This document shows, piece after piece, positions 1,970 to 22,603 of a stretch of 22,603 nucleotides of DNA. The translations under genes were made by a program, and so were the position numbers. Each line of letters opens with the position of its first letter. Position 1 is the stretch's first letter. The notes under the pieces are model-generated. The model saw only the letters and a program-made list of their open reading frames with translations. It was not told where the DNA came from and did not search any database. This DNA comes from Actinomycetales bacterium (GTDB lineage: Bacteria; Actinomycetota; Actinomycetes; Actinomycetales; Actinomycetaceae): NCBI GenBank assembly GCA_022838965.1, contig JALHDK010000009.1:1-22603 (forward strand). The letters are read 5' to 3'.

Positions 1970-1970
1970 G

Positions 1971-5612: not shown

Positions 5613-5628
5613 GGCGCGGACCCGTGAC

Positions 5629-6009: not shown

Positions 6010-6022
6010 GCTCAACCCCCTG

Positions 6023-7717: not shown

Positions 7718-7720
7718 GGG

Positions 7721-7727
7721 ATTCTCC
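7721..7727 (-). promoter_or_regulatory. Strong ribosome binding site of the sheath gene
   Basis: On the minus strand the sequence GAGGAGAATCCC immediately precedes ATG 7717. This puts a near-perfect Shine-Dalgarno at a six-base distance and settles the sheath start against the longer open frame. Confidence 0.8.
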
Positions 7728-7742
7728 TCTGTCGTCGGGAAT

Positions 7743-7760
7743 GGCCACCGGGCGGTGGCC
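7743..7760 (-). promoter_or_regulatory. Hairpin in the sheath 5' leader
   Basis: A perfect 7-bp inverted repeat (GGCCACC / GGTGGCC, 4-base loop) lies about 25 nt upstream of the sheath ATG. A second stem (CCCGAC 7789-7794 / GTCGGG 7802-7807) lies further upstream in the same leader. They could affect translation or message stability. No regulator is identifiable. Confidence 0.45.
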
Positions 7761-7856
7761 TTCAGGGACACCAACTGGAGCGAGGATCCCCGACGGCATG
7801 GGTCGGGCGGCGAGAACCCCCTGCGTGACGGCATCTTCTGAATGTCGTTGGCGCAC

Positions 7857-7885
7857 ACGCTAGGGGCGCCGACCCGGACGGTCAA
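7857..7885 (-). promoter_or_regulatory. Sigma-70-type promoter of the contractile tail operon
   Basis: Reading the minus strand, TTGACC (-35, 7880-7885) is followed by a 17-bp spacer and TAGCGT (-10, 7857-7862). This predicts a start near 7850 and a leader of about 130 nt before the sheath ATG. Both hexamers are close to the housekeeping consensus with ideal spacing, which is notable in such GC-rich DNA. Confidence 0.7.
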
Positions 7886-8002
7886 GGGTGCGCGCCGAAG
7901 TCGGCCAGAAACCCCGGGTGCGATCCCGCCCGTTCGTCTGCGGGTGTCGACGCAGGTCAGCGACGCGGCCGCCGGGCCCTCGTCGCCGGCCCCCGGGAGG
8001 GC

Positions 8003-8008
8003 TATCGT
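8003..8008 (+). promoter_or_regulatory. -10 element, probably leaderless methyltransferase promoter
   Basis: TATCGT fits the actinobacterial TANNNT -10 and ends six bases before the GTG start at 8015, the spacing expected if transcription begins at the start codon. A GGGAGG at 7995-8000 is too far away to be a good ribosome site. No clear -35 is visible. Confidence 0.5.
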
Positions 8009-8014
8009 GAGTCC

Positions 8015-8626
8015 GTGAGTGGATTCGACGAGAAGGCCGCCACGTGGGACGACGACGAGAAGCGTGCCCGGGCCGCCGCCGTCGCCGCGGCGATCGCCGA
8101 GCGGGTGCCGCTCGCGGACGTGCGGGACATGCTGGAGTTCGGCTGTGGCACCGGCCTGCTCAGCCTCGCCCTCGACCCGGCGCCGCCCCGCGCGCTCCTC
8201 ACGGACACCTCGGCAGGAATGCTCGAGGTGGTGCGGGGAAAGCTGGCCGCGTCCGGCCGCGCGGACTGGCAGGCCCTTGACATCGATCTCACCGTCACGG
8301 ATCTCCCCGACCGGCGGTTCGACCTTGTCGTCTCGCTGCTCGCACTCCACCACGTCGCGGACGTGCCGGGGCTGATCGCCCGGTTCCACCGGGTGCTGCG
8401 CCCCGGCGGCTGGGTGGCCCTCAGTGATCTCGACAGCGACGACGGTCTCTTCCACGACGCCCACACCCACCGCCACCACGACGGCTTCGATCGGGCGGCC
8501 CTCGCGGAATCGCTGGCGGCGGCGGGTTTCCGGGACATCGCGTTCTCCACCCCCCACCACCAGCGCAAGGTGGTCGACGGCGTGGAGCGCACCTTCCCGC
8601 TGTTCCTCGCGGTGGCTCGGGCCTGA
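8015..8626 (+). CDS. Class I SAM-dependent methyltransferase
   Basis: A 203-aa cytoplasmic methyltransferase of the UbiE/Methyltransf_11 type. Motif I is 'MLEFGCGTGLLSLAL' (E.G.G.G, SAM binding). It is followed by 'LTDTSAGMLEVV' (acidic loop and GML helix), 'WQALDIDL' (motif II region), 'RFDLVVSLLALHHVADV' (post-II) and 'FHRVLRPGGWVALSDLD' (motif III). The His-rich segment 'DAHTHRHHDGFD' near residue 150 leads into a C-terminal helix typical of this group. The substrate cannot be told from sequence. It starts at GTG 8015 with a probable leaderless mRNA and is divergent from the tail operon; the downstream hydrolase begins 10 nt after its stop, so the two are probably co-transcribed. Confidence 0.88.
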   Translation: MSGFDEKAATWDDDEKRARAAAVAAAIAERVPLADVRDMLEFGCGTGLLSLALDPAPPRALLTDTSAGMLEVVRGKLAASGRADWQALDIDLTVTDLPDRRFDLVVSLLALHHVADVPGLIARFHRVLRPGGWVALSDLDSDDGLFHDAHTHRHHDGFDRAALAESLAAAGFRDIAFSTPHHQRKVVDGVERTFPLFLAVARA

Positions 8627-8636
8627 GGCCGGGGCG

Positions 8637-9458
8637 GTGCGCCGGATCGTCGGGGTGATCCTTGTTGTCGTGGCGGTGGCAGGAGTCGTGATGGGCGGTG
8701 CGTGGGCCCTGCAACGCAGACTGATCTACTTCCCGGACGCCCGCGCCCTCCCCCCGGCCGCAACGGTCCTCGACGGCGCCCGTGAGGTGACCCTCCACAC
8801 TGCGGACGGGCTGGGGCTGACGGCATGGTTCGTACCGCCGTCGGGCCCGGACACGGGCGTGGCGGTGCTGGTGGCCCACGGCAACGGCGGGAACATCGCG
8901 GACCGCGCGGACCTGGCGCGCGAACTCGTCCGCCGCGGTCTGGCCGTCCTGCTGCTCGAGTACCGGGGCTACGGCGGGAACCCGGGCTCGCCGTCGGAGG
9001 AGGGCCTGGCGCTGGACGCGGAGGCGGCAGTCGCGACGCTGCGGGATCTCGGATACCCGCCCGGGCGAACCGTCTTCTTCGGGGAGTCGCTGGGCACCGG
9101 GGTGGTGGCGCGCCTCGCCGCCACGCACCCGCCCGCGGGTGTGGTGCTGCGCTCGCCGTTCCCCGAGCTGGCCGACGTCGGCGCGCACCATTACCCGTGG
9201 CTGCCGGTGCGCGCGATCCTGACCGACCGGTTCCCGGTCTCGGAGCACCTCGGGCGGGTGACGGTGCCGGTGGTGGTGATCCGGGGTGACCGTGACTCGA
9301 TCGTGCCCACGGAGCTCAGCCACCGGGTGGCCGTCGCGGCGCCCACCCTCGTGGAGGAGGTGGTGCTGCCCGCCGACCACAATGACACCATCATGGTCGG
9401 TGGGCCTGTCGCGGACGTCGTGGCACGGCTGGTCACGGGCCACGAAGCGAAAGGATGA
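8637..9458 (+). CDS. Membrane-anchored alpha/beta hydrolase (Bem46/ABHD13-like)
   Basis: A 273-aa serine hydrolase with an N-terminal membrane anchor (residues about 4-24, 'IVGVILVVVAVAGVVMGGAW') followed by 'QRRLIYFP', the opening of Bem46/YqkD/ABHD13-like enzymes. The oxyanion region is 'VAHGNGGN' (79-86), the nucleophile elbow 'GESLGTG' puts Ser at 151, the acid is Asp220 in 'GDRDSIVP', and the base is His248 in 'PADHND'. The catalytic domain therefore probably faces outward. The start is GTG 8637, with GAGG overlapping the methyltransferase stop 8 nt upstream. Its stop overlaps the GNAT start (ATGA, 9455-9458). Substrate unknown; esterase or thioesterase activity is a family expectation only. 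Confidence 0.85.
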   Translation: MRRIVGVILVVVAVAGVVMGGAWALQRRLIYFPDARALPPAATVLDGAREVTLHTADGLGLTAWFVPPSGPDTGVAVLVAHGNGGNIADRADLARELVRRGLAVLLLEYRGYGGNPGSPSEEGLALDAEAAVATLRDLGYPPGRTVFFGESLGTGVVARLAATHPPAGVVLRSPFPELADVGAHHYPWLPVRAILTDRFPVSEHLGRVTVPVVVIRGDRDSIVPTELSHRVAVAAPTLVEEVVLPADHNDTIMVGGPVADVVARLVTGHEAKG

Positions 9459-10012
9459 CGGTGGACCTGAACGAGTGGGGCGGCGCGCCCATCCCGGACG
9501 ACATCTGGGAGGGCGTGGTCACGATCTACCGGGACTCGTTCCCGGCCGCGGAGCGCATGGACGAGGACGCCCTGCGGGGAAGCATTGAGGCCGGCCGGCG
9601 GCGCCTGTGGACGCTCGGCGGGGTGGAGGCGTTCGCGGTCGCGCTCGACCTGACGACGGCGCCCCCGTGGGTGTTCGGCGAATACCTCGCAGTCCGCGAG
9701 GGCGCCCGCTCCGGCGGCCTCGGGGGTGCGTTGCTCGGGGCCTTTCGTGCCCTCGGACGGCCCGTGGTGCTGGAGGTCGAGGACCCGGCGTGGGCCGGTG
9801 AGACGGCGATGCGACGCATCACGTTCTATGAACGCCACGGAGCGCGCCGGGTGCCGGGATCCGAGGGATTCCGGGCGCCGGACCTGGCGAGGCCGGGCGA
9901 GTCGATCCCGATGTGGTTGCTGCAGCTGCCGGGGGATGCCGGCGCGGAGCAGGGCGAGGCGCTCGGGCGGCTGCTTGTGGGGGCAATCCTGGCGGAGGGT
10001 TACGTGGTCTGA
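9455..10012 (+). CDS. GNAT-family N-acetyltransferase
   Basis: A 185-aa GNAT-like acetyltransferase. The acetyl-CoA pyrophosphate-binding loop is visible as 'LAVREGARSGGLGGALLGAF' around residues 78-97, a variant of R/Q-x-x-G-x-G/A. It is followed by 'PVVLEVEDP' (motif A to B strand) and 'MRRITFYERHGARRV' (motif B with the usual F/Y-ERxGF-like helix). The N-terminal part 'VTIYRDSFPAAERMDED' resembles GNATs that act on small molecules. It is coupled to the hydrolase by a four-base overlap and ends the operon. Substrate unknown. Confidence 0.8.
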   Translation: MTVDLNEWGGAPIPDDIWEGVVTIYRDSFPAAERMDEDALRGSIEAGRRRLWTLGGVEAFAVALDLTTAPPWVFGEYLAVREGARSGGLGGALLGAFRALGRPVVLEVEDPAWAGETAMRRITFYERHGARRVPGSEGFRAPDLARPGESIPMWLLQLPGDAGAEQGEALGRLLVGAILAEGYVV

Positions 10013-10114: not shown

Positions 10115-11578
10115 ATGGGACGGACGGTCGCGCAGCTGGGTGCCCTTGCCGTCGCCGCTTCACTGGCCCTGAGTGCCTGCTCGGAGGCCACCAGCGAAGC
10201 CACGACTGCCGCGGCGACGTCGTCAGCGTGGGAGCAGATCAAGGAGGCGCACTTCGCGGGGCTCGAGCCCGTCAATGCCGTCGGGGACAGCACACAGATC
10301 CAGAGTTTCCCCTTGATGATCGCGAGGGACCAGCTGAGCGAACTCCGGGAGGATCCGGCTCGATTCGAACACCATGGGTATCTCTTCGAACTTGCCCTGG
10401 TGGACGACGTCGCCCCGGGTGATTACAGCGTGCTCGCGCTTCCCACCGCCAGCTAAGGCACACCGCCTGAGGAACTCGCCGCCAATCTGGTCACTCTCTG
10501 GGCCGATCCTGCGGTCCTCTCGCGTTTCCGGGAGAACGATGAGGTGGCCGTGGCGGGTGTCGTTGTCACGGGGAGGGAGTTGGGCATCGACGTGCCGTTC
10601 GCCCTGTATGCCCTCCACATGGTCCCCCTCGAGGAGTATCAGGCGATCTCGCTGACCGTGGGGGCGATCGAGCCCCTGCGCGTGCCTGCAAACACCGTGA
10701 CAGACACGATCGCCATCGGGACCCGGCCCGAGTCGGTGGCGGTGTACGCGGCGGCGGGTGCGCTGTTCGTGGCCAACTCCGGAGACGGCACGGTGTCGGT
10801 GATCGACGCAAGAAGTCACCGCTCAACGGCCACGATCCCCGTAGGAGCGGAGCCATGTGACCTTGCGCTCGACACGGGAACCGGGATCCTCTACGCCTCC
10901 AACAGGGGTTCCGGGAACGTATCCGTCATCGACACGCTCACGAACACGGTGTCCGCCTCGATCGCCGTGGGGCGCAGCCCCAGCGCGGTGATCGGAAACT
11001 CGTCCGTGGGGCTGTATGTCGCCAACCAGATGGACGGGACCGTGTCGGTCGCGGACACCGACACCAATGCTGTCCTGGGACCGGTCACCGTCGGTGCCGG
11101 GCCGCAGGCTCTCGCTCTCGACGGCGCACGCAGCACGGTGTACGTGGCGAGCGCCGTCGCCGGAACCGTTGCGATTCTGGACGCCACCACCGACACCGTG
11201 CGAGCGTCCATCCCTGTGGGCGGGAGCCCATCGGGCGTAGCGGTGGATCCCGCGTCCGCGACTGTCTACGTCACCAGGTCGGCCGATGCATCGGTTTCCG
11301 TGATCGACACCGTGTCCAGGCGGATCACGGCAACGGTGCGCGTGGGATCCAATCCAGCCGGCCTCGCGCTCGACAGCCGTTCGCAAGCCCTGTATGTCGC
11401 CAACTCCGGGGATGGGACAGTGTCGGTGATCGACACCACGTCCCTTCAGGTGGTGAACACCATTCCGGTGGGAGTGAATCCTTCCGCAATCGCGGTGGAC
11501 ACCAGATCCGGCGGAGTGTATGTCGCCAATTCGGGGGACGGAACGCTCTCGGTCCTGCGGGCACGGACAGAGCGCTGA
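10115..11578 (+). pseudogene. YVTN seven-bladed beta-propeller lipoprotein, split by an in-frame TAA
   Basis: One frame runs from ATG 10115 to TGA 11578 (488 codons counting both stops) but has a TAA at 10454-10456 after 113 residues. The N-terminus is a lipoprotein signal (lipobox LSAC, 'VAASLALSACSEATSEA'), and GGAGGA directly precedes the ATG. After a 150-200 residue unrecognised domain that spans the TAA come seven YVTN repeats of about 42 residues ('VANSGDGTVSVID' and similar; 'I.VG..P...A.D'), a complete propeller. Such lipoproteins usually bind partners or polymers at the cell surface. As written, only a 113-aa exported lipoprotein is made; a GTG at 10544 could restart the propeller, but without a signal peptide. 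A TAG-GGT-like -10 (10068-10073) may drive it. Nonsense mutation, sequencing error or recoding are all possible. Confidence 0.8.
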
Positions 11579-11590
11579 GCCGGCCCGCGG

Positions 11591-11635
11591 CGGTGAGTTT
11601 CCGAGGATTCACCGGCGATGAGCGTGGCGGCCGCC
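11591..11635 (+). other. Inverted repeats in the propeller-NRPS intergenic gap
   Basis: CGGTGA (11591-11596) can pair with TCACCG (11609-11614), and GGCGGCCGCC (11626-11635) is a perfect palindrome. They may end transcription from the propeller gene or serve as an operator upstream of the synthetase. The rest of 11579-11757 shows only the -10 element listed separately. Confidence 0.3.
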
Positions 11636-11715
11636 TGGCCGTGTTCGGCGCCGTCACGGTGTTTCTGAACGTCCATGTGGTGGCACAGGACGTCCAACGC
11701 TGCCGGTGGAGCATG

Positions 11716-11721
11716 CATAAT
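11716..11721 (+). promoter_or_regulatory. Near-consensus -10 of the Pls-like operon
   Basis: CATAAT stands out in GC-rich DNA and is one base from TATAAT; a TG directly precedes it. The -35 position (TCCAAC, 11693-11698, 17-bp spacing) is poor. Transcription would begin near 11728, about 57 nt before the chosen synthetase start. Confidence 0.5.
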
Positions 11722-11771
11722 GGGGACGGTTAGCACACGTCGGCGAATGCGCCCAGTGTGAGAGTCGAAGC

Positions 11772-11779
11772 GGGGGAGG
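11772..11779 (+). promoter_or_regulatory. Ribosome binding site deciding the synthetase start
   Basis: GGGGGAGG lies five bases before ATG 11785. It favours this codon over the upstream in-frame GTG at 11758, which has no comparable site. Confidence 0.75.
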
Positions 11780-11784
11780 CGCAG

Positions 11785-14700
11785 ATGGCACCACCACCTT
11801 CGCCCGGAACCGGACCCTCGGCGACGGTTACGCGTGGGGAGGCGCCACAGGCTTCCGAACACTGGGCCTACATCGCCGACATTCCTCGGCCAGGTGCCCT
11901 GCACCAGTTCGTTGAGGCCACCGCGGAACGCACTCCCCACGCGACTGCCCTCGAGTGTGCGGGCGAGCTCCTCACCTATCGCGAGTTCGACGAGGCGGGG
12001 AACCGCCTCGCACGGCACCTGTGGGGCCGCGGCATACGACCCGGGTCGGTGGTCGGCATTCTGGTCGATCGCTCGGTCGCGATGTATGTCGCGATCCTCG
12101 GGGCGTTGAAGGCCGGCGCATGCTACGTGCCGATCGATCCCAAGTCTCCCCACGACCGCGTCGCGTACATCGTGAAGGACGCCGGGGTGAGCGCGCTTCT
12201 CACCACCCGAGATCGCGCCACCTCCAGTGACGGTGTTGGTGTTGAACGGGTGTGGCTGGACTCCCTCCGCGCTCAGCTTGCCACGGGGGACGGCTCGCGG
12301 ATCGACCTCTCGATCAACGACGAGTCGGCCGCCTACATCATCTACACGTCCGGTTCGACGGGGCGGCCAAAGGGAGTGGCAGTCTCGCACCGCAGCATCT
12401 GCAACTTCGTGGTGGTGGCCTCCGAGGTCTACGGGGTCACCGCGCGGGATCGCGTCTACCAGGGGCTCTCCATCTCGTTCGACTTCTCCCTGGAAGAGTT
12501 GTGGACCACGTGGGCGAAGGGTGCCACCCTCGTCGCCGGCCCGACGGACGGCCGTCAGGTCGGTCCTGAGCTGGCGGACTTCCTGGAACAGCAGCGGATC
12601 ACGTTCCTCCATGCGGTTCCGACTGTTCTCTCCACCATGGATCGCACGCTCCCGCTGATCCGCACGCTCAACCTGGGCGGCGAGCCGTGCCCTCAGGAGC
12701 TCGTCGAGCGATGGGGTGCCCCTGACCGCCGGATCCTCAACACCTATGGGCCGACCGAGTGCACATCGAGTTGCACGTGGGCGGAGCTCCGCCCCGGTGT
12801 CCCCGTGACCATCGGCACCCCCTTGCCCACCTACACCTGCACGCTCCGTGATGAGGATTTCGCCATCGTGCCCGACGGCGAGGTCGGAGAGTTGTGCATC
12901 GGCGGCATCGGCGTGGCGTTGGGCTACATCGGCCTGCCGGCCCAGACCGCTGAGAAGTTCGTCATCGACGAGCGCGGGGAAAGGGTCTACCGCACCGGTG
13001 ACCTTGGCCGCTATGACGAGAACGGCAACATCGTCTACATGGGCCGAAAGGATGCCGAGGTCAAGGTCCGCGGCCACCGCGTCGATCTGGGCGAGATCGA
13101 GAGCACCCTTCTCCAGAGCTCGCTCGTCTCATCAGCGGTTGTCAGCAAGCTGGATGTCGAGGGCACCGGCGGTGAGCTCGTGGCCTACCTTCTCCTCGCA
13201 GGCTCGACCGTTGGCACCCGTGAGCTCGCAACCAGACTGCGCGACCACTGCCGCAGCCAGCTTCCCGCCTACATGGTCCCCGACTACGTCGAGTTCGTCG
13301 ACGAGATACCGCTCATGCCGTCGGGCAAGGCGGACCGCTCCGCCCTTCCCCCACCGGTTCATCCGCGGCTTGTCCATGGGTCCAATGGACGCCACAGCTC
13401 GCCGCGAACCGCGACGGAGAGGTGGATGACCGAAGCATGGGCCGAAGCGTTCCGCCTGCCAGCCGACCAGATCTCCACAAGGGCGGACTTCTTCACCGAT
13501 CTCGGTGGGCACTCACTTCTCGCTGCAACGTTGGTCTCCCGGTTGCGCTCATCGGGACGGCCCGGCACGCAAGATCTGTCCATTCCCGACCTCTATGCGA
13601 ACCCGACGGTGCAACGGTTGTCGGCCTTCCTCGATCGGGAAGTTGCCGCGGGCCCGGGGCTGAGAGCCGCGACCACGGCGGTGAGCAGGCAACGGTACAG
13701 CCGGCTGAGGATCGTTGCCTTCGGTGCGCTGCAGGTGCTGTACATCTACTTCGCGGTCCTGCTGGCTTTCGCGCCGACAGGCGTCGTGTACAGCATCCAC
13801 GCGGGCGTCCCGTCGTTCGACATGCTCCTCCAGATGGCCGCCACGCTGCCGGTGAGCTACCTGGTCGCGCGGTGGCTGCTCCCGGTGATCACCGCCAGGC
13901 TATCCGCGCCAGGCATCACCCCGGGGGAACACCCCCTGTATGGTCGCGTCCACCTCCGGGTGTGGCTGATTCAACGAGCTGTCGGCATGTCGCCCTTGGA
14001 GCATCTCTCCGGCTCACACCTCATGGCACCGTACCTGAGGCTGCTCGGCGCACGGATCGGTGAGGCATGCCACATTGGCACCGCCCACATTGCCCTGCCT
14101 CCGGTTGTCGAGGTGGGCGACGATGTCACGATCGGCTACGGCACCCACCTCCGCGGATTCGAGATCCAGAACGGGATGCTCCGGATCGGCCACATTCGAC
14201 TCCGTGACCGCGCCAACATCGGGGCCAACTGCGTGCTGACGGGTCCATGCTCCGTGGGCGACGAGGCCATCGTGCGAGCTCAATCCCTGCTCCTCCCCGC
14301 ATCCGACATCGGCGCCCGCGAGGTGTGGGCCGGCTCGCCCGCGAGCCTCACCCGCACCGCGAATGATCCCGCCATCGATGCGATGATCGAGTGCCACAGC
14401 GCTCCTCGCGAGTGGCCAAGGTTGCTGACCCGCCGGATGTCCCTGGGGGTGGTGTTCCTCGAGATTCTTCCGATGCTGGCGATGCTTCCCATCATCGGGA
14501 TTGTCTGGTGGACCTTGCTCACCTACGACGACCGATGGGCACTCGTCGCCACCGCGGTATCGGGCCCACTGTTCGTCCTCACCACCTGCGGACTGATCCT
14601 CTGGTTCCGCCGGTTCGCGCTCCTTGACACACCGGTGGGAATCCACCACCTCCGCTCTGAGCTGGGCGTCGAGAAGTGGTTCGGGGACAAGCTTCTCGAG

Positions 14701-15435
14701 GCCAGCCTCGAACTCACCAACTCGCTCTATGGCACGCTCTACACTCCCCACTGGCTGAGGCTGCTCGGCGCGAAGGTCGGCAAGGGGACGGAGATCGCGA
14801 CCATCGCGAACATTGATCCTGACCTTCTCACCCTCAAGGACGATTCCTTCGTCGCGGACATGGCGTCGATTGGGTCCGCGACCTATGCGAACGGACACGT
14901 GGCGTTCCGCCGCACCATCGTCAACAGTCGAGCTTTCGTGGGGAACGCCTCCTTCGTGCCCTCCGGATCGAATCTTGGCGAGAACTCCCTGATCGGCGTC
15001 CTCACGAAGCCACCTGTCGGGGGTGCTCCCCGCGGTACATCCTGGCTCGGCTCGCCTCCGATCTTCCTTCCGAACCGCGAGATGTACGACGAGTTCGGTG
15101 AAGCCTCGACGTTCAGGCCTCCGCGCCGGAAGGTGATCGCCAGGTACATCATCGAGTTCTTCCGGACGACGCTTCCGGCGTCCATCCTCGGACTCTCGGC
15201 CTTCTTCACCCTGTGGATGCTGGCATTCCTTGCGCGGACCTGGGACATGTGGTCGGTCGTCCTCATCACCGGCGTCGTGGCCCTCACCGGGAGCGTGCTC
15301 GTGACGCTCGCCGTCTCCCTGCTCGCACCCGCCCACGGCCCGAGGCGTCGTGGCCCTCACCGGGAGCGTGCTCGTGACGCTGCTGGTAGCAGCGATCAAG
15401 TGGCTGCTTGTCGGCCGCTACCGTCCGCGCGTTGA
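11785..15435 (+). CDS. Pls/PosA-type NRPS (epsilon-poly-lysine-synthetase-like), frameshifted 3' part
   Basis: This is the A-T-membrane part of a Pls/PosA-family synthetase. The adenylation domain (about 25-520) has 'YIIYTSGSTGRPKG' (~184-197), 'FDFSLEELW', 'NTYGPTE', 'YRTGDLGRY' and the catalytic Lys515 in 'PSGKADR'. The thiolation domain has 'DLGGHSLL' with the phosphopantetheine Ser577. There is no condensation or thioesterase domain; as in Pls, membrane pairs (about 640-710, 885-950, 1120-1175) alternate with left-handed-beta-helix domains ('LRLLGARIG', 'LRLLGAKVGKGTEI'). The family adenylates an amino acid and polymerises it at the membrane. The natural frame ends at about codon 1174, where a 73-bp insertion shifts it; the last ~40 residues ('GPRRRGPHRERARDA...') are out-of-frame sequence. 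The third helix domain is in the next frame. Confidence 0.88.
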   Translation: MAPPPSPGTGPSATVTRGEAPQASEHWAYIADIPRPGALHQFVEATAERTPHATALECAGELLTYREFDEAGNRLARHLWGRGIRPGSVVGILVDRSVAMYVAILGALKAGACYVPIDPKSPHDRVAYIVKDAGVSALLTTRDRATSSDGVGVERVWLDSLRAQLATGDGSRIDLSINDESAAYIIYTSGSTGRPKGVAVSHRSICNFVVVASEVYGVTARDRVYQGLSISFDFSLEELWTTWAKGATLVAGPTDGRQVGPELADFLEQQRITFLHAVPTVLSTMDRTLPLIRTLNLGGEPCPQELVERWGAPDRRILNTYGPTECTSSCTWAELRPGVPVTIGTPLPTYTCTLRDEDFAIVPDGEVGELCIGGIGVALGYIGLPAQTAEKFVIDERGERVYRTGDLGRYDENGNIVYMGRKDAEVKVRGHRVDLGEIESTLLQSSLVSSAVVSKLDVEGTGGELVAYLLLAGSTVGTRELATRLRDHCRSQLPAYMVPDYVEFVDEIPLMPSGKADRSALPPPVHPRLVHGSNGRHSSPRTATERWMTEAWAEAFRLPADQISTRADFFTDLGGHSLLAATLVSRLRSSGRPGTQDLSIPDLYANPTVQRLSAFLDREVAAGPGLRAATTAVSRQRYSRLRIVAFGALQVLYIYFAVLLAFAPTGVVYSIHAGVPSFDMLLQMAATLPVSYLVARWLLPVITARLSAPGITPGEHPLYGRVHLRVWLIQRAVGMSPLEHLSGSHLMAPYLRLLGARIGEACHIGTAHIALPPVVEVGDDVTIGYGTHLRGFEIQNGMLRIGHIRLRDRANIGANCVLTGPCSVGDEAIVRAQSLLLPASDIGAREVWAGSPASLTRTANDPAIDAMIECHSAPREWPRLLTRRMSLGVVFLEILPMLAMLPIIGIVWWTLLTYDDRWALVATAVSGPLFVLTTCGLILWFRRFALLDTPVGIHHLRSELGVEKWFGDKLLEASLELTNSLYGTLYTPHWLRLLGAKVGKGTEIATIANIDPDLLTLKDDSFVADMASIGSATYANGHVAFRRTIVNSRAFVGNASFVPSGSNLGENSLIGVLTKPPVGGAPRGTSWLGSPPIFLPNREMYDEFGEASTFRPPRRKVIARYIIEFFRTTLPASILGLSAFFTLWMLAFLARTWDMWSVVLITGVVALTGSVLVTLAVSLLAPAHGPRRRGPHRERARDAAGSSDQVAACRPLPSAR
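15271..15381 (+). repeat. 38-bp direct repeat flanking 35 bp: frameshifting insertion in the Pls-like gene
   Basis: Positions 15271-15308 and 15344-15381 are identical over 38 bp, offset by 73 bp, and separated by a unique 35-bp segment (15309-15343). Since 73 is not a multiple of three, the frame shifts by one. Deleting either 73-bp unit leaves 5385 nt from 11785 to 17242, exactly 1795 codons, and restores 'VALTGSVLVTLLVAAIKWLL', which matches the corresponding membrane segment of known Pls proteins as I remember them. Confidence 0.9.
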
Positions 15436-17242
15436 GCCGTTGTGGGGCAATTTCGTCCGGCGCACCGAGTTTGTCACGGGCATCTTCGAGACCACCGCTG
15501 TGCCGGCACTGCTCGCGCTCATCCAGGGCACTCCGCTCCTCGGCCCGGTGCTGCGCCTGTACGGTGCTCGCATCGGGAGGCGAAGCCTCCTCGACACCAC
15601 CTATGTGACCGAGTTCGATCTCATCCACGTCGGGGATGACGTTGCGGTGGGTCATGAAGTGTCCCTCCAGACCCACCTCTTCGAGGACCGGGTCATGAAG
15701 ATGGGTGTGGTTGCTCTGGAGGATGGGGCCAGCGTGGGGAGCCGCGCCGTCGTCCTGTACGGAGCGACGGTGGGCGAGGATGCGAGTGTCGATCCCTTCA
15801 CTCTCGTCATGAAGGGCGAGTCACTGCCGCCGAACACCCGGTGGGCCGGGATCCCAGCACGCCGCCGCCGCCACGAGCTCACTTCGGCGGTCGCGACAGG
15901 CACGCCGGAGTCCCCGCAGGAGGTGGTGGACGCCGTCGAGGAACCGCCCGCCCCCACCGCGGTCGCGGTTGCAGAGGACATCGTCGATGTCCCGCACGTC
16001 CTCGAGGAAGTTCCGGCGAGCGTCTCCGCATCCGCGGACCGGATCGTCGGGATCGATATCGCCCGGGGCATCGCGCTCATCGGGATGATGGTCGTCCACC
16101 TGCTTTCCGACGTCACCGACGACGGCAGCATGACGTGGTGGTTCACCCTGGCCTCCGGCAACTCGGCGGCGCTGTTCGCCACCCTCGCCGGAGTCGGCAT
16201 CGCGCTGTCAACCGGTCGCTCGCGTCCCCACTCGGGCAGGAAGTACGCCGCTGGCGTGGTGGCACTCGTGGTGCGAGCCGCCGTCATCGGGATCATCGGC
16301 CTCGCACTCGGCCTCGTCGTGCCGGCGAGCGTCGCCGCGATCATCCTGCCCTACTACGCCCTCCTCTTCCTCCTGGCGATCCCCTTCCTGCGAGTCCCGC
16401 CCGTGGCGCTCGGGACACTCAGCCTGATCATGGCCGTAGCGATACCCGTGTGGAGCCACTTCGCCCGCCAGTCACTTCCAGTCGCCCCGGAGGCCGTCAA
16501 CTTCACCTTCCTCGACGTCATCCAGGACCCTGCCGGGGTTGGCACCCAGCTTCTCCTCACGGGCGTGTACCCGGCGATCCCCTGGGTGGCCTACATCGCG
16601 CTGGGGATCGCTCTTGGCCGGGTTCGGCCGCGCCGCCTGATCGGGCTCATGTGGATGGTCGGCGGCGGTGTGCTTGCCCTGCTTGCCTCGATGGCTTCCT
16701 GGATCCTGTTGAGGCCCATGGGGGGGATCCAGGAGCTCGCCGAAGTGGCCCAGGACTATATGTCGTTGGACAAGTTCACCACGACGCTGGTATGGGGAGC
16801 AGGGGGGACGTTGCCCACTGACACCCCGTGGTGGCTGGCTGTGAGGGCGCCGCACACCACCACACCACTTGACCTGCTCTACACGATGGGTGTCGCGATG
16901 GCGGTGCTCGGGGCGTGCATCATCGTCAACGTCGTCGTCCCCGGCGTGTTTCGTCCCCTTTCGACGATGGGTTCGATGCCACTCACCATGTATTCTTTGC
17001 ATCTGCTCATGAGCACTGCCCTCGAGTGGCCCGACTGGGTGGCCTTCGAGTTCTGGTTGCAGGTGATGATCCTCATGGCCTTCGCCCTGCTGTGGAGCCG
17101 ACGGTACCGGCGCGGGCCTCTCGAGGAGGTGGTGAACGCTGTCGTCAAGGTGAGCCGGCGCCCCTTCGTGCAGAATGCGCGCCCCCGGCACCTGATGATT
17201 TCGGAGACACCGCGCCATGCGAACGGCGCGAGAGTGGGCTGA
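15350..17242 (+). CDS. Third Pls-type beta-helix domain fused to HGSNAT/DUF418-like membrane acyltransferase
   Basis: A 630-aa frame continuing the Pls-like synthetase. Residues about 1-35 complete a membrane helix pair ('LVAAIKWLLVGRYRPRVEPLW'-like, the start of Pls C3). Residues about 60-175 are the third left-handed-beta-helix domain ('LRLYGARIGRRS', 'SLQTHLFEDRVMKMG', 'LPPNTRWAGIPA'). After an acidic linker, residues about 229-600 form a polytopic domain opening with 'RIVGIDIARGIALIGMMVVH' and 'ALFATLAGVGIALSTGR', typical of HGSNAT/DUF1624 and DUF418/YeiB acyltransferases that move acyl groups across the membrane. About ten hydrophobic segments follow. GTG 15350 has GAGG four bases upstream, created by the duplication junction, so it might be translated separately. 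Otherwise it is the 3' part of a broken 1794-codon gene. Confidence 0.82.
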   Translation: MALTGSVLVTLLVAAIKWLLVGRYRPRVEPLWGNFVRRTEFVTGIFETTAVPALLALIQGTPLLGPVLRLYGARIGRRSLLDTTYVTEFDLIHVGDDVAVGHEVSLQTHLFEDRVMKMGVVALEDGASVGSRAVVLYGATVGEDASVDPFTLVMKGESLPPNTRWAGIPARRRRHELTSAVATGTPESPQEVVDAVEEPPAPTAVAVAEDIVDVPHVLEEVPASVSASADRIVGIDIARGIALIGMMVVHLLSDVTDDGSMTWWFTLASGNSAALFATLAGVGIALSTGRSRPHSGRKYAAGVVALVVRAAVIGIIGLALGLVVPASVAAIILPYYALLFLLAIPFLRVPPVALGTLSLIMAVAIPVWSHFARQSLPVAPEAVNFTFLDVIQDPAGVGTQLLLTGVYPAIPWVAYIALGIALGRVRPRRLIGLMWMVGGGVLALLASMASWILLRPMGGIQELAEVAQDYMSLDKFTTTLVWGAGGTLPTDTPWWLAVRAPHTTTPLDLLYTMGVAMAVLGACIIVNVVVPGVFRPLSTMGSMPLTMYSLHLLMSTALEWPDWVAFEFWLQVMILMAFALLWSRRYRRGPLEEVVNAVVKVSRRPFVQNARPRHLMISETPRHANGARVG

Positions 17243-17247
17243 CGTTC

Positions 17248-17901
17248 GTGGCACCGCTCGCCCTGGTCTACCGTGGCCGTGCGACCGTGCCCGGATGCCC
17301 CGAGGCGGTCGCCCGGCTCCTGCGCACCAGCGACGTGCCGCTCAGGGTCGCCTACGTCGGCGAGCATGAGGAGTATCCGCTCACACCAGAGGTGTTGGCC
17401 GGCACCACGGTCTACGCCCAGCCCGGAGGTGGCGAACTCGGCCCGGCGTGGCGACGAATGCGCGGGCACGCCGCTGCGATCCGCACCTTCGTCCGGTCGG
17501 GTGGACGGTTTGTCGGATTCTGTCTCGGCGGCTACCTCGCGGGCCACAGCCCCGGATTCGGATTGCTCGACGGCGACGCCCACCAGTATGTCCGTAGCGC
17601 GGGGGCGGAAACGGTGTCCGAACGCCCAGCCATTCTTGAGGTCACCTGGGCCCAACGCCCGCGGCGGATCTATTTCCAGGACGGCTGCGCATTCGCTGTG
17701 GGACCGCACACCGAGGTCATTGCCCGCTATCGCAACGGAGAGCCGGCGGCGGTTGTCAACCCCTTTGGCGCGGGTCGTGTGGCCGCCGTCGGACCTCACC
17801 CGGAGGCGACGGACGACTGGTTCCTTGACGAGGGGCTGGAGCCGGTTCGTCCACTCACGCACGACCTCGGTCTCGACCTGCTCCGGCGCCTGATGGCATG
17901 A
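17248..17901 (+). CDS. BPL_N / class I glutamine-amidotransferase-like protein
   Basis: A 217-aa protein like the N-terminal domain of yeast biotin-protein ligase (BPL_N), a stand-alone GATase-1-like fold in bacteria. 'PLALVYRGRATVPGCPEAV' opens it; the nucleophile elbow is 'GFCLGGYLAG' (Cys92). His184 and Glu186 in 'GPHPEATDDWF' complete a Cys-His-Glu triad, so a catalytic amidase or amidotransferase activity is plausible. 'YAQPGGGELGPAWRRM' matches the family's PGG motif. The substrate is not known for this family. The best start is GTG 17248, 5 nt after the preceding stop; no in-frame ATG is nearby. Its TGA overlaps the PPTase ATG, so it is part of the Pls-like operon and may act on the polymer or its carrier. 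Confidence 0.8.
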   Translation: MAPLALVYRGRATVPGCPEAVARLLRTSDVPLRVAYVGEHEEYPLTPEVLAGTTVYAQPGGGELGPAWRRMRGHAAAIRTFVRSGGRFVGFCLGGYLAGHSPGFGLLDGDAHQYVRSAGAETVSERPAILEVTWAQRPRRIYFQDGCAFAVGPHTEVIARYRNGEPAAVVNPFGAGRVAAVGPHPEATDDWFLDEGLEPVRPLTHDLGLDLLRRLMA

Positions 17902-18500
17902 TCGACGTCTGGCTCGCTCCCATCGCGCAGCACCTGGGTCCGCTGCTGGACGACCTCAGTGCAGCAGAGCTCGAGCGCGCGGCCCGCATCAACCACCCGC
18001 GCCGGCTCGCGTCCTTCGTGTCCGCCCACTCCCTGGTCCGCCGAGTCCTGGGCGAGAGACTCTCGCTGGCGGCTCGGGACGTGCCCATCGACCGCGCGTG
18101 CCGAACCTGCGGCGGCGACGACCACGGGAAACCGTTCATCGTGGGCGTGGAGCCAGCAACTGTCTTCAGCCTGAGCGTGGCGCCCACTCTCGTGGGCGTA
18201 GCCGTTGCCGCATCGGGAAGCCTCGGCCTCGATCTGGACGCGCGGACCGCGGGCCGGACCTGGGTTCGCCGGGAGGCGGTGCTCAAGGCGACTGGCCACG
18301 GTCTGACGATCGATCCGGCACGCGTGCTCGTCACGGACGAGGAGGCGAAGCCCGAGCTACTATACTGGCCACTGGGCCCGCTTCGGGACGTGCACTTGTA
18401 CGACCTCGAACCAACGACGGACGTGATCGGATGCGTCGCATGGCGCGGGGTGCGCGTCGCCGACGACGGCGTCGTCGTACACAGACTGGAGAACCGGTGA
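17898..18500 (+). CDS. Sfp-type 4'-phosphopantetheinyl transferase, shortened
   Basis: A 200-aa PPTase that would transfer the phosphopantetheine arm from CoA to Ser577 of the synthetase. Seen are 'RINHPRRLASFVSAHSLVRR' (the usual R..R..F..a+..lR), 'CGGDDHGKPFI' (HGKP loop for CoA), 'FSLSVAPTLVGVAVA' (SxS strand), 'GLDLDA' (metal-binding Asp112, Asp114) and 'WVRREAVLKATGHGL' (Glu126, Lys130). Only about 12 residues separate Asp114 from Glu126, whereas Sfp has roughly 40 there, so an internal segment is missing. The start overlaps the BPL_N stop (ATGA 17898-17901); the stop overlaps the next start (GTGA 18497-18500). The operon context makes the synthetase its likely partner. Confidence 0.85.
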   Translation: MIDVWLAPIAQHLGPLLDDLSAAELERAARINHPRRLASFVSAHSLVRRVLGERLSLAARDVPIDRACRTCGGDDHGKPFIVGVEPATVFSLSVAPTLVGVAVAASGSLGLDLDARTAGRTWVRREAVLKATGHGLTIDPARVLVTDEEAKPELLYWPLGPLRDVHLYDLEPTTDVIGCVAWRGVRVADDGVVVHRLENR

Positions 18501-19912
18501 GCCGAGCAAGGAGAGCCCTGGGACTGGCCGCGGTTGCGTCTCTCCTCCTGGCTTCGTGCTCGGTCGGGGTCGTTCCTCGTTCCGTTGGCATCGCGGAGCG
18601 TCCCATCCCACGTCCGGTCCTCGATCTTTCCTTTCAGGTGAGCGACGACCTCAGGACCGTCAGCGGTACTGAGCTGATCGAATTCACCCCCGACCTGCGG
18701 GTGTGTGAAGTGGTGCTCCGGGCGTGGCCCAACAAGCCCGCCACAGCCCGCCAGGGCAACGCCCTGATGCTCCAATCGGTGCGCATCAACGGAGTGGACG
18801 CCGCGTTTCTGGAGGAGGCGGCCGGGGCTCCCGAAGGCAGTCCTGGCACGCTGATCGAGGTTCCCCTTCCCCAGTGCGTGGAGGCTGGGGGGCGCATCGA
18901 GATCGGCGCCGATTTTGTGCTGAGACTCGGAGAAGGTACCGATGAACGCGTCGGCTACTCACTCCGGGACGGGCAGGCGTGGTTCGCGAGCGCCTTTCCG
19001 ATGCTCGCCTACCAGAACGGCGTCGGCTGGATCCGGGACGAGGCCGTGCCCGTCGTCGGCGAGATGGCCACAACGGAGACCTTCATCCTGCGCGATCTCG
19101 CGATCACCGCACCGTCGCGATTTGGGGTGGCTGCGGTGGGTGAAGTCGGACCCGCCGCGGTTAACGAGACTCAGGGCACGGTCACCCACCGCTTCTCGGC
19201 GCCAGCCCTCCGCGACGTCTCAGTCCTGGTGGGTGAGATCGAGATCGTCGAACGCGCCACGTCGGGCGTGCGCGTCCACGTCGCCCTCCCCCGCAGCGCG
19301 GCGGACCGGGCGACAGCGTGGCAGGACGCGGTGGAGGACGCCCTCCGAAGGCTCGTTGCGTACCTGGGCCCGCACCCCTACGACGACCTGTGGGTCGCCG
19401 TGATCCCGACCCAAACCGAGGGCCTCGAATCGACGGGTGCCATCCAGCTCGGCAACATCTCACCCCGCTCCGAGGACGACGAGTGGCTCTTCACTCACGA
19501 GATCGCCCATCAGTGGGTGTATGGACTCGTCGGCAACAACCAGGCCCGGCATCCCTGGATGGACGAGTCGGTCGTGAGCATGATCCAGGCCGTGGTGGAC
19601 AGCCCCGGCCTGTGCCCCGAGCCTGTCCACGACTATCCCGAAGAGGCGCGAGCGCGCATGGGCCTGCCCATGAAGGATTTTCTCCAGTTTGAACGTCCCG
19701 GCCGGGCCTATGTGGAGGCTGTCTATTCCGCCGGATCCGACATGCTGATCGAGGCGCGGGACAGCGCTGGCCACGCGGAGTTCGACGCTGCGTTGCGCTC
19801 CTACATCGCCGGCAACGCGCATCGGATCGCCTCTCCCGAGGACTTCGCACAGGCATTCGCCGGACTGCCAGCGGTATTGAGCGCGTTGCAGGAGGGCAAC
19901 GCCCTGCCGTGA
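18497..19912 (+). CDS. Lipoprotein M1-family zinc aminopeptidase
   Basis: A 471-aa exported metallopeptidase of the M1 gluzincin type. The signal peptide has lipobox LASC (Cys21), so it is anchored outside the membrane. An N-terminal beta domain starts 'PVLDLSFQVSDDLRTVSGTE' and runs to about residue 290. The zinc site is perfect: HEIAH (His334, Glu335, His338) followed after 18 residues by Glu357 ('PWMDES'). 'ESTGAIQLGN' occupies the GAMEN exopeptidase position, and 'VYSAGSDMLIEARD' may supply the catalytic Tyr. GTG 18497 overlaps the PPTase stop. Placed last in a Pls-like operon, it may degrade or trim the polymer outside, as the membrane zinc aminopeptidase does for epsilon-poly-lysine in Streptomyces (family knowledge, not seen here). 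Confidence 0.87.
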   Translation: MSRARRALGLAAVASLLLASCSVGVVPRSVGIAERPIPRPVLDLSFQVSDDLRTVSGTELIEFTPDLRVCEVVLRAWPNKPATARQGNALMLQSVRINGVDAAFLEEAAGAPEGSPGTLIEVPLPQCVEAGGRIEIGADFVLRLGEGTDERVGYSLRDGQAWFASAFPMLAYQNGVGWIRDEAVPVVGEMATTETFILRDLAITAPSRFGVAAVGEVGPAAVNETQGTVTHRFSAPALRDVSVLVGEIEIVERATSGVRVHVALPRSAADRATAWQDAVEDALRRLVAYLGPHPYDDLWVAVIPTQTEGLESTGAIQLGNISPRSEDDEWLFTHEIAHQWVYGLVGNNQARHPWMDESVVSMIQAVVDSPGLCPEPVHDYPEEARARMGLPMKDFLQFERPGRAYVEAVYSAGSDMLIEARDSAGHAEFDAALRSYIAGNAHRIASPEDFAQAFAGLPAVLSALQEGNALP

Positions 19913-19932
19913 TCGGTCTCGTGACCTGATCA
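19910..19932. terminator. Shared stem-loop between convergent genes
   Basis: TGATC-GGTC (19910-19918), loop TCGT, then GACC-T-GATCA (19923-19932) form a nine-pair stem with one bulged T. It overlaps the stop codons of both convergent genes. No T-tract is present, but position and symmetry suggest a bidirectional terminator or mRNA 3' stabiliser. Confidence 0.5.
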
Positions 19933-21126
19933 GCGAGTGAGCCGCTCAGCCTCGGAGATCCGGTAGGGGCCCGCGTACTCCACAATCCGCCACACCGAGT
20001 CGTTGGTGTCGACCGCGGCGGCCGAAGACCCGATGGTGGCGCCCTCACGGCCCGCTGTCACGGTCGTCGATTCGGGCGGCGTCATCCGATACACCACGTC
20101 GCGCGTGAAGACCAACTCGAACGGGATTCTCTGGTCGAGATACCGAAAACGTGCCTCGTGCGTGAACCGGACGAGCAGCGACGAATCGGACGACGTTCCC
20201 CACGCCTCGAACTCGGACAGGCCTGTGGCCCATGTGCTGTCCGCGACAGATCCCACCGTGAATCGCACACTCGTGACCTCCCGCGGCGGGAATGTCACTG
20301 TCGTGGCGGTTCCCTCATTCGAGAGCCGGCCCACAGCGACAGTCGATCCGTCCGAGAAGGTCAGCGTCCCGGCGAGGACGTGGTCGTCTAGGTTCGGTCG
20401 ATCATGCAGCACCACACGGTTCAATGTCACCTCGCTCTCCCACGTCAGCTGGATCCACGAGCCGTCATACTCGTAAGCCGTCGACCACTCCTTGGTGGCA
20501 TCGACCGGATAGCCGAGAACGGAGCCGTCGACGGCGGCCTCCGCGAACGAGCGCTCCTCCTCATCCACCGACGAAGCAGTCACGGTCGCCAGCGGGGCGA
20601 GATTGGAGTCGGATCTCCCGGACGAATCGTCGGAGGGGGCCTCAGGATCAGGGAACTGTCCCGCGAAGAGATCGACCGCGAGATCCGTGATGGCCTGCGA
20701 TCGGAGAGTCTTCCCGTCAGGTGGGGAGCTCAGCTTCGGATCCTGGAGGTCGTACATCCTCAGAGCTCGGATCTCCTCCCTCGCTGACTGATCACCGGCG
20801 AGCGCGGCCACCACCCGCGCATTCCACACTGCCAACGAGCTGGGCGTCAGGACGTTCGTGACTCCGGCGCTGAGTTCCTCGGCGGTGAAGTTCACCTTCT
20901 GAGGGTCGAGCAAACCGGGGGTGAAGCCGTACTCGAGGGCAAAGGACACCGCATCCGCAGCCGCCTGCCGTGCCCGCTCCGCACCGACCGACCGTGCAGC
21001 CGCGTCGGAGATCTCTGGCGCTTCCACATACAGCGGAGGGCGAGCCAGATCGGGGTCGGCCTGAAGGGCGCAACCGGAGAGAGTCACGCCGACGAGGACA
21101 ACGATCAGACAGCCCCTCACCCGCAT
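19930..21126 (-). CDS. Lipoprotein with F5/8-type-C-like (discoidin) domain
   Basis: A 398-aa lipoprotein. Lipobox LSGC (Cys19) follows a short hydrophobic signal ('CLIVVLVGVTLSGC'). Residues about 25-175 are charged, partly helical and not recognisable. Residues about 185-320 resemble F5/8-type-C or NPCBM carbohydrate-binding domains: 'NLAPLATVTASSVDEEERSF', 'AAVDGSVLGYPVDATKEWST', 'GSWIQLTWESEVTLNRVVLH', 'LTFSDGSTVAVG' and 'TSVRFTVGSVADSTWATGLS' with a final 'EFEAWG'. A conserved beta segment follows to the end. A role in binding surface glycans or polymer is inferred. Start ATG 21126 is preceded by GGGAGAGAGTGGGAGT, and a TAGGAT -10 lies at 21180-21185. It converges on the M1 lipoprotein gene. 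Confidence 0.8.
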   Translation of the reverse strand: MRVRGCLIVVLVGVTLSGCALQADPDLARPPLYVEAPEISDAAARSVGAERARQAAADAVSFALEYGFTPGLLDPQKVNFTAEELSAGVTNVLTPSSLAVWNARVVAALAGDQSAREEIRALRMYDLQDPKLSSPPDGKTLRSQAITDLAVDLFAGQFPDPEAPSDDSSGRSDSNLAPLATVTASSVDEEERSFAEAAVDGSVLGYPVDATKEWSTAYEYDGSWIQLTWESEVTLNRVVLHDRPNLDDHVLAGTLTFSDGSTVAVGRLSNEGTATTVTFPPREVTSVRFTVGSVADSTWATGLSEFEAWGTSSDSSLLVRFTHEARFRYLDQRIPFELVFTRDVVYRMTPPESTTVTAGREGATIGSSAAAVDTNDSVWRIVEYAGPYRISEAERLTR

Positions 21127-21179
21127 ACTCCCACTCTCTCCCGGCTCCCGTGAGCACTCGGTGCGGTGACGATGTGTTG

Positions 21180-21185
21180 ATCCTA
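21180..21185 (-). promoter_or_regulatory. -10 element of the F5/8-domain lipoprotein gene
   Basis: On the minus strand TAGGAT (TANNNT type) would start transcription near 21173, leaving about a 47-nt leader. The -35 region is not consensus. Confidence 0.45.
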
Positions 21186-21192
21186 CCTCAGC

Positions 21193-21229
21193 ATCCGGGA
21201 CCGACTTCGGGCACGGACAAGACCCGGAT
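21193..21229 (-). terminator. Possible stem-loop after the SLH gene
   Basis: ATCCGGG (21193-21199) and CCCGGAT (21223-21229) form a 7-bp stem around a loop containing a second small CCGA/TCGG stem. It lies 32 nt beyond the SLH gene stop. No T-tract is present, so this is weak evidence. Confidence 0.3.
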
Positions 21230-21260
21230 CCGGCTCGACATCCCTGAGAAGGCGCACAAG

Positions 21261-22603
21261 TCAGAGCCGATCGAGCCGGTACAGGAATGCCGCCATCGCG
21301 TCGCGCGTGACGGCGCTCCCCGGACGGAAGGTGCCGTCGGGCCATCCCTTGGTGATCCCCGTGGAGGCCATCCACGTCACCTCCTTGTAGAAGGAGGACG
21401 CGGGCGTCATGTCCGTGAACGGCGAGGCTGCCGGCGGTGTGAAGCGCGGTGATCCTGCGAACCGGTAGAGGAAGGCCGCCATCGCATCGCGGGTGATCGG
21501 CAGCTGGGGCCGGTAGGTCCTCGTCCCGTCCACTTCAACCCACCCGGTGCAGACACCCCTTGAATGCAGCCACGTGACCTCCTTGTAGAAGGCGGAGGTC
21601 GGCGCCATGTCCGCGAACGGTGACGTGGCGGGTGGAGTGAACGACGGTGAGCCCGCAGCCCGGTACAGGAACGCCGCCATGGAGTCGCGGTTCACGGGGT
21701 CGAGGGGACGGAAGGTGCCGTCCGGGTATCCCGTGGTGATTCCTCTGGCGGCCAGCCACTCCACCTCGGTGAAGAACGGCCACGTCTCCGGGACGTCCGA
21801 GAAGGTTGGGCCGGGGTGGTCGTGCAGAGCGAGCTGTTGGCCGACGACCGGCCCAAATCGCCCGGACAGGTCGTGGCCGACGCCGGCCGGAGTCTCGAGA
21901 GAGGTGGGGAATCCGGCTCGCGCGTAGTACTCCGAGCCGCGTTGCGCGTCCAGGAGCGCGTTGTAGCCGGAGGTGTCGGCCGCGCCGGTGTACCAGTGCA
22001 TCGGGAAGTCTTCCCGGAGATCTGCGGGGAAGGGCCGGGCGGTCACTCGCGGGGCACCCCCGCCACCAAACACCACCGCACCGCCTCCATTGGCGAGACT
22101 CGGGTACAAGGGAAAGAGGAACTGCGTGACGAACTGCGCGCCACCCGAGTAGCCCACGAGCCAGATGCGCTCAGTGTCGATGTTGTACCTCGACAAGGCT
22201 ACCGACGTGATGAGGTCTCGGGCATAGTCCGCATTGGCCACGCCTGACTCCCACCAGGTCACCGTGCCCTGGGTGTCGGGACTCTTCGCCGCCAGCAGGA
22301 TCATGTTGTGCGCCGCGGCCTGCGCCCTGATTCCGGTGGTTCCGCCCAGGGAATACGAGGAGTTGGGGTTGTTGAACTCGTAGGCTCCGTCGCCATGGAA
22401 GTGGATCATGAGCCCGATTGATCTGGTGGAGTCGAGGCCGGCCGCGTACAGGTGGTATTGACCGGTGAGACCGCCCGCTGCCGTGTAGGTACGGAACGTG
22501 GCGTCGGTGAATGCGCCACCCGATCCCCCTGTCGTGAGTGCGTGAGCGCTGCGGGGCAGCGCCACGAGGGCCATGATGACCACTACCGTGAATAGCGTGC
22601 TCA
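21261..22603 (-). CDS. Secreted alpha/beta hydrolase (esterase-like) with three SLH domains; start just outside window
   Basis: A secreted cell-wall-attached hydrolase. The frame is open to the edge; the last two bases read TG, so an ATG/GTG almost certainly starts at 22604, giving the ideal signal peptide STLFTVVVIMALVALPRSAHA with cleavage after AHA. A GTG at 22583 or ATG at 22574 would truncate the signal. The catalytic domain (about 30-265) has 'LMIHFHGDGAY' (oxyanion loop), 'LVGYSGGAQF' (nucleophile Ser) and 'GVGHDLSGRFG' (His), resembling PHB-depolymerase/feruloyl-esterase-like folds. Three SLH repeats follow ('FSDVP..FFTEVEWLAARGI', 'ADMAP..FYKEVTWLHSRGV', 'TDMTP..FYKEVTWMASTGI'), each ending in RDxMAAFLYR, and would bind wall polymers. 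Substrate unknown. Confidence 0.87.
   Translation of the reverse strand, partial: STLFTVVVIMALVALPRSAHALTTGGSGGAFTDATFRTYTAAGGLTGQYHLYAAGLDSTRSIGLMIHFHGDGAYEFNNPNSSYSLGGTTGIRAQAAAHNMILLAAKSPDTQGTVTWWESGVANADYARDLITSVALSRYNIDTERIWLVGYSGGAQFVTQFLFPLYPSLANGGGAVVFGGGGAPRVTARPFPADLREDFPMHWYTGAADTSGYNALLDAQRGSEYYARAGFPTSLETPAGVGHDLSGRFGPVVGQQLALHDHPGPTFSDVPETWPFFTEVEWLAARGITTGYPDGTFRPLDPVNRDSMAAFLYRAAGSPSFTPPATSPFADMAPTSAFYKEVTWLHSRGVCTGWVEVDGTRTYRPQLPITRDAMAAFLYRFAGSPRFTPPAASPFTDMTPASSFYKEVTWMASTGITKGWPDGTFRPGSAVTRDAMAAFLYRLDRL

Follow-up and report, generated by a model that had tools for sequence, protein, structure and literature searches.

What does a compact run of genes in an actinobacterial genome make, and which of its genes act together? 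The stretch analyzed here (hereafter the window: 22,603 nucleotides of contig JALHDK010000009.1, assembly GCA_022838965.1, from an Actinomycetales bacterium) carries sequences for a Pls/PosA-type synthetase, an HGSNAT-type acyltransferase, a BPL_N protein, a 4′-phosphopantetheinyl-transferase (PPTase)-like protein and an M1 metallopeptidase. The original prediction described these genes as a candidate system for a surface amino-acid polymer. Comparison with other genomes showed that the locus is a BPL_N-linked branch of the synthetase family, with recurrent HGSNAT, M1, PPTase-like, esterase and F5/8 lipoprotein genes.

Linkage was examined from both sides. With BPL_N as the bait, a species-genome collection was scanned with 22 aligned BPL_N proteins; relatives were found in 136 stretches, the best 80 were kept, and neighbors were counted by profile searches of all open reading frames (ORFs), some loci being cut short. 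Among these best 80 loci, Pls was found in 75, HGSNAT in 51, M1 in 35 and the PPTase-like gene in 20. The distance from Pls to BPL_N was 4 kb or less in all 75 Pls-bearing loci, and the two genes shared a strand in 74 of them. As for the loci without Pls, in L008 and L047 the contig begins immediately upstream of HGSNAT or within it, and L027 and L029 are 4-kb contigs with BPL_N close to the edge. The A-domain pocket code of the synthetase begins with Asp-Phe-Glu (DFE) in 70 of 71 aligned ORFs of BPL_N loci, not counting the row of the window itself, the exception being a different nonribosomal peptide synthetase in L021. Two or more copies of BPL_N, often flanking HGSNAT and all with an intact Cys-His-Glu triad, are present in 24 of the 80 loci (e.g., L009 and L018). 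Because the same neighborhood recurs in many named actinobacterial genera, the gene run is more than a chance arrangement.

With the synthetase as the bait, a phylum-wide draw of 296 genomes contained 14 with TIGR02353 over the cut-off; loci were available for 14 of the 17 matches above it. Thirteen of these (L093-L105) are lysine-type, reading DAESIGTVVK and followed directly by an M1 gene, with neither BPL_N nor HGSNAT found in their 1.5-kb flanks; the remaining one is the DFE locus of the centre genome itself. In the Geodermatophilus family (112 genomes), 18 genomes gave 20 TIGR02353 matches, all of them DFE. The order PPTase-like (opposite strand), Pls, HGSNAT, BPL_N, esterase (opposite strand) and M1 was found at 18 of the 20. 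In all 18 loci with BPL_N, an opposite-strand homologue of the esterase part of the window's minus-strand protein separates BPL_N from M1. From the Micromonospora family, 150 genomes were drawn and 20 of 53 matches examined: 14 are DFE (13 with BPL_N, one cut by a contig end) and four are lysine-type with M1 only. Across the lysine-type loci of the family draws, each about 12-15 kb, M1 was present and BPL_N and HGSNAT were not found. Taken together, BPL_N accompanied 31 of 34 DFE synthetases in the two families, which were picked for their known BPL_N loci, so that this count cannot be extended to DFE synthetases in general. A tree built from 50 chosen sequences and rooted at its midpoint sets the lysine-type apart from the DFE-type synthetases; with a support of 0.83, it places a Streptomyces celluloflavus synthetase (code DFECLSAVTK; L086) as the sister of the BPL_N branch. 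These genes therefore co-occur in other genomes, as the original prediction had expected, and BPL_N, which it had left as an unexplained partner, is the most constant partner and is tied to the DFE-code branch.

Two side observations were made in these surveys. A DDAH-like (PF19420) gene lies just upstream of BPL_N in 15 of the 80 loci (e.g., L005:9099-9908), which we take to be mainly from Micromonosporaceae, and perhaps serves in monomer or polymer modification. In the Micromonospora family, L210 and L211 carry the code DGESVSVVNK, near the printed epsilon-poly-beta-lysine synthetase code DGESISVVNK; BPL_N, HGSNAT and M1 were not found beside these synthetases in the stretches examined (only 5.4 kb for L210).

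The genes of the run are arranged in the window as follows.

11785-15435, plus strand: synthetase, first part, Pls/PosA-type, with AMP-binding, PP-binding and most of TIGR02353; adenylation (A) domain at residues 44-515, thiolation (T) domain at residues 547-616 with Ser577, start of the transmembrane/left-handed-beta-helix terminal region at residues 657-1177
12481-12771, plus strand: A-domain pocket code region (D233, F234, E237 ... S329), giving DFEHNGTSS plus K515
15271-15381, plus strand: exact 38-nt direct repeat, copies 15271-15308 and 15344-15381, at the synthetase frame break
15350-17242, plus strand: synthetase second part, with the end of the Pls terminal domain (residues 4-170) and HGSNAT_cat (from residue 231)
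17248-17901, plus strand: BPL_N protein, class I glutaminase/amidotransferase fold, triad Cys92-His184-Glu186
17898-18500, plus strand: PPTase-like protein, divergent
18497-19912, plus strand: M1 metallopeptidase with lipoprotein-type signal, HEXXH at residues 334-338 and Glu357

All five activities of the original prediction are present in one plus-strand run, and the gap lengths given there (5, -4 and -4 nt) hold: BPL_N begins 5 nt after the preceding gene, and each of the next two genes overlaps its predecessor by 4 nt. The count of separate genes needs revision, as the synthetase and the acyltransferase belong to one gene. TIGR02353 is split over two frames, with profile positions 14-538 in the first ORF (316.4 bits) and 529-695 in the second (198.7 bits), each alone below the cut-off of 423.1; the repeat copies at the break are offset by 73 nt (3x24+1), which shifts the frame. 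An intact homologue from a public protein set, P0005 (1794 aa), reads through the break site and scores 525.4 bits. It is 99.83% identical to the first ORF over residues 1-1178, with two mismatches and with the start of that ORF at P0005 residue 1, and 100% identical to the second over residues 1165-1794. Because this near-identical protein reads through the break, the synthetase and the HGSNAT-type acyltransferase form a single fused protein. The HGSNAT profile matches 17 of the 120 homologues listed, 16 of them strongly and P0005 among them. In Nigerium (L001), the two are separate proteins whose genes overlap by 4 nt.

By its A, T and TIGR02353 domains, the fused protein is assigned to the Pls/PosA-type cationic poly-amino-acid synthetases. 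The T-domain serine is present in 49 of 50 aligned rows, the remaining row being L036, in which the synthetase is split over two ORFs. The Pfam matches of the window synthetase include the PP-binding domain with Ser577 but neither a condensation nor a thioesterase domain.

Which amino acid this synthetase would polymerize was approached through its pocket code, the residues of which were placed by alignment and checked against the spacing printed for PosA (D217, M218, E221, H260, N280, T304 and S313; available part of PMC10522769). The window code is DFEHNGTSSK. The code of PosA, the delta-poly-L-ornithine synthetase of Acinetobacter baumannii, is DMEHNGTVSK, and eight of ten residues and the spacing are the same, including the Asp and Glu at positions 1 and 3 (D233 and E237), both of which PosA requires. 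At position 2, PosA has Met and the window synthetase has Phe. Within the same available part (PMC10522769), position 2 is given as Ala for lysine and as Phe in the poly(L-diaminopropionic acid) (PDAP) synthetase. Since the window synthetase has Phe and not Ala, a short diamino acid, 2,3-diaminopropionate (DAP) or 2,4-diaminobutyrate (DAB), appears the most likely substrate. Poly-lysine was rejected as the product, as both code and clade differ from those of the lysine-type synthetases. Of the original proposal, the part on a polymer synthetase is supported by the synthetase type, the cationic code and the T-domain serine; its product would be poly-DAP or poly-DAB more likely than poly-lysine, because the DFE code of the BPL_N-linked branch differs from the lysine-type code.

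The remaining proteins of the run differ in how well they fit known families. First, the HGSNAT domain exceeds the gathering score of PF07786 (50.4 vs 22 bits), and its H25, H277 and H326 are at least 95% conserved in 52 rows. HGSNAT enzymes transfer acetyl groups to amines across a membrane, and glycan amines are among their substrates. As this domain is fused to a polyamine synthetase, a free amine of the polymer chain would be its obvious target. Second, the PPTase-like protein scores 22.7 bits with ACPS (PF01648), below the gathering score of 25, and 34.1 bits with the HetI model (E 1.7e-8; cut-off 370), and its C68, C71, H76 and D112 are at least 95% conserved in 20 rows. The original prediction of a PPTase to activate the synthetase holds for its place in the run, but this divergent protein can be called only PPTase-like. 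Third, the M1 protein exceeds the PF01433 threshold (33.9 vs 27.7 bits) and has a full HEXXH-X18-E zinc site, with H334, E335, H338 and E357 at least 95% conserved in 36 rows. Its lipoprotein signal and its resemblance to PldII of epsilon-poly-lysine producers bear out the proposed parallel with a polymer-degrading peptidase. Because the lysine-type loci match a second M1 profile (about 320-375 bits) better than the window's own (about 130-185 bits), the window M1 is judged from these scores a cousin of PldII and not a close relative. Fourth, BPL_N has a predicted class I glutaminase fold with an invariant Cys-His-Glu triad and an invariant Pro-Gly-Gly; the closest solved folds are glutaminase subunits, namely Pdx2 and those of imidazole glycerol phosphate synthase. 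BPL_N would act directly together with the synthetase, and chain release or capping is its most likely role, as this type of synthetase is without a thioesterase.

Starting from the observed anatomy, linkage, codes and triad and the predicted BPL_N fold, we infer the substrate, the acylation and the roles of BPL_N and M1 as follows. The T domain would be loaded by the PPTase-like protein and the diamino acid activated by the A domain; the membrane-embedded C-terminal domains would link the monomers and export the chain. With cytosolic acyl-CoA, the fused HGSNAT domain would acylate, probably acetylate, chain amines on the outer side and so tune the charge of the chain and how toxic it is to the producer. 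The exported chain would be trimmed or degraded by the lipoprotein M1 peptidase, as epsilon-poly-lysine is by PldII, and BPL_N, as a Cys-His-Glu enzyme, would release or cap chains together with the synthetase. Collectively, the locus would make, acylate, export and trim an isopeptide-linked cationic homopolymer of a short L-diamino acid, with BPL_N releasing or capping it, a reading to which we give a probability of about two in three.

Several observations weigh against this reading. In 20 genomes with DFE-type loci, hand-chosen and not random, SbnB exceeded the cut-off in two, Dat in four and EctB in three; the source of DAP or DAB is therefore unexplained in most of them, and many carry weaker SbnB, Dat or EctB matches that could do the same job. 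Two second-copy DFE synthetases of the Geodermatophilus family consist of Pls-HGSNAT only, without BPL_N. Conversely, L062 (Actinocatenispora rupis), the only Pls-less locus of the 80 not explained by a contig end, has BPL_N in a genome without a Pls match at 1e-30. Of the 80 loci, some of them cut short, 29 showed no HGSNAT and 45 no M1; the absence of HGSNAT suggests that it is dispensable for the core reaction, and neither protein looks essential. An HGSNAT/DUF418 gene also occurs in a cluster of S. celluloflavus (L122) that resembles the one for gamma-poly-L-diaminobutyrate (gamma-PLDAB). To our knowledge, gamma-PLDAB has not been described as acylated. Finally, the stop-to-stop frame of the BPL_N-linked synthetase in S. 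noursei A-2-1 leaves room for no more than 4269 bp, vs 4338 bp given for the PDAP synthetase (PDAPs) in the available part of its report (PMC4668381).

The alternative that fares best is that BPL_N is a true glutaminase, supplying ammonia for synthesis of the diamino-acid monomer and not acting on the chain or its activated end. Its nearest folds are glutaminase subunits, both Pro-Gly-Gly and the triad are invariant, and another monomer route is needed where SbnB, Dat and EctB so seldom pass the cut-off. We regard this as a serious, if tentative, possibility, and still favor release or capping for a synthetase type without a thioesterase.

A second alternative, that the product is poly-ornithine instead of poly-DAP or poly-DAB, draws on the eight of ten residues shared by the window and PosA codes and on the fact that ornithine would need no special supply pathway. 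It is unlikely, as Phe in place of Met218 should shorten the pocket, and Phe is found both in the PDAP synthetase and in the Dat-linked, gamma-PLDAB-like synthetase of S. celluloflavus.

The third alternative involves two genes on the minus strand beyond the run.

19930-21132, minus strand: F5/8 type C (DUF7402) lipoprotein, a recurrent neighbor and possible product-binding protein
21261-22583, minus strand: esterase-like domain plus three SLH repeats, the esterase part recurring in other loci

Because homologues recur in nine (F5/8 lipoprotein) and 13 (esterase) of the 80 BPL_N loci, both may belong to the system; product binding by the F5/8 lipoprotein, as originally suggested, is only possible. 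If such proteins are surface partners, the product might be no free polymer but short diamino-acid chains on a surface glycan or lipid. The recurrence of lipoproteins and of an SLH-anchored esterase beside the locus would fit, as would the general activity of HGSNAT enzymes on glycan amines. This is improbable, as epsilon-poly-lysine and PDAP are recovered free from cultures according to the available parts of PMC8117764 and PMC4668381, and a partner attaching chains to a glycan or lipid was not noticed among the families searched. Even less probable is that the window copy is a decaying pseudogene with a split synthetase: the offset repeat does shift the frame and an adjoining propeller frame also carries a stop, but P0005 has no break and differs from the first ORF at two of 1178 aligned positions, the remaining three genes of the run have open frames, and a strain variant or an assembly error is the more likely explanation.

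Upstream of the synthetase, 10115-11578 holds a lipoprotein signal and a YVTN beta-propeller in one frame, parted by one stop codon at 10454-10456; this is another gene close to the synthetase break that looks damaged. This propeller lipoprotein had been proposed to bind the product; with a homologue in one of the 80 loci, it is not linked and was rejected as part of the system. The left half of the window carries contractile-tail genes (sheath, PAAR and baseplate) on the minus strand. The content of guanine plus cytosine drops at about 10 kb, from 74.3% over 1-10012 to 66.6% over 10115-22603, and this step may mark either an island border or a chimeric contig.

Poly-lysine-type polymers are used as food preservatives and antimicrobials, and their chain release and length control are poorly understood. 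For the PDAP synthetase, release is described as still to be determined in the available part of PMC4668381. A near-constant catalytic partner and a frequent, sometimes fused membrane acyltransferase open the questions of release and length to single-gene deletion, and BPL_N together with the DFE code could serve as a simple marker for mining actinobacterial producers of polymers other than poly-lysine. A bolder and rather doubtful extension is that the branch makes a chemically new surface polymer, a DAP or DAB isopeptide chain N-acylated outside the cell by the fused HGSNAT, with BPL_N releasing it as a C-terminal amide or by cleaving an isopeptide. In that case, BPL_N would be the missing chain-termination factor of the DFE synthetase branch.

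Compared to known systems, the core of the locus belongs to a known synthetase family, and the conserved setting around this core was not found described in print. In a literature search that covered main texts and few subscription papers, neither BPL_N nor HGSNAT was found linked to Pls-type synthetases, and five DFE codes of the BPL_N branch were not found printed. The epsilon-poly-L-lysine system (Pls and PldII) of Streptomyces albulus, now S. noursei, shares with the window the layout of A, T and membrane terminal domains and has an M1 metallopeptidase gene directly downstream of Pls; it differs in its code (DAESIGTVVK), its separate clade, and in that BPL_N and HGSNAT were not found in the flanks examined. 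The available parts of the reports describe a lysine-type pls-pldII operon with a 4-nt overlap (PMC4361855) and PldII as a metallo-aminopeptidase outside the membrane (PMC9223678).

PDAPs, from S. albulus PD-1 (now S. noursei PD-1), resembles the window synthetase in having Phe at code position 2 (available part of PMC10522769). NCBI taxonomy places both S. albulus and the PDAP producer strain PD-1 under S. noursei. The S. noursei genome examined has two TIGR02353 genes over the cut-off: one is lysine-type and followed by an M1 gene that passes Pfam M1, and the other is DFE-type with BPL_N (L026), in a locus that showed no HGSNAT, M1 or PPTase-like gene. With the lysine-type gene set aside, this second one may be the PDAP synthetase, with the difference in reported ORF length noted above. 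The gamma-PLDAB cluster is described with dat and ask in the available part of PMC8117764. BPL_N was not found in the 18 kb of L122, which has Dat over the cut-off beside the synthetase, the HGSNAT/DUF418 gene nearby and an M1 gene on the opposite strand. With its DFE code and its place on the sister branch, L122 resembles the published cluster and is a candidate gamma-PLDAB cluster.

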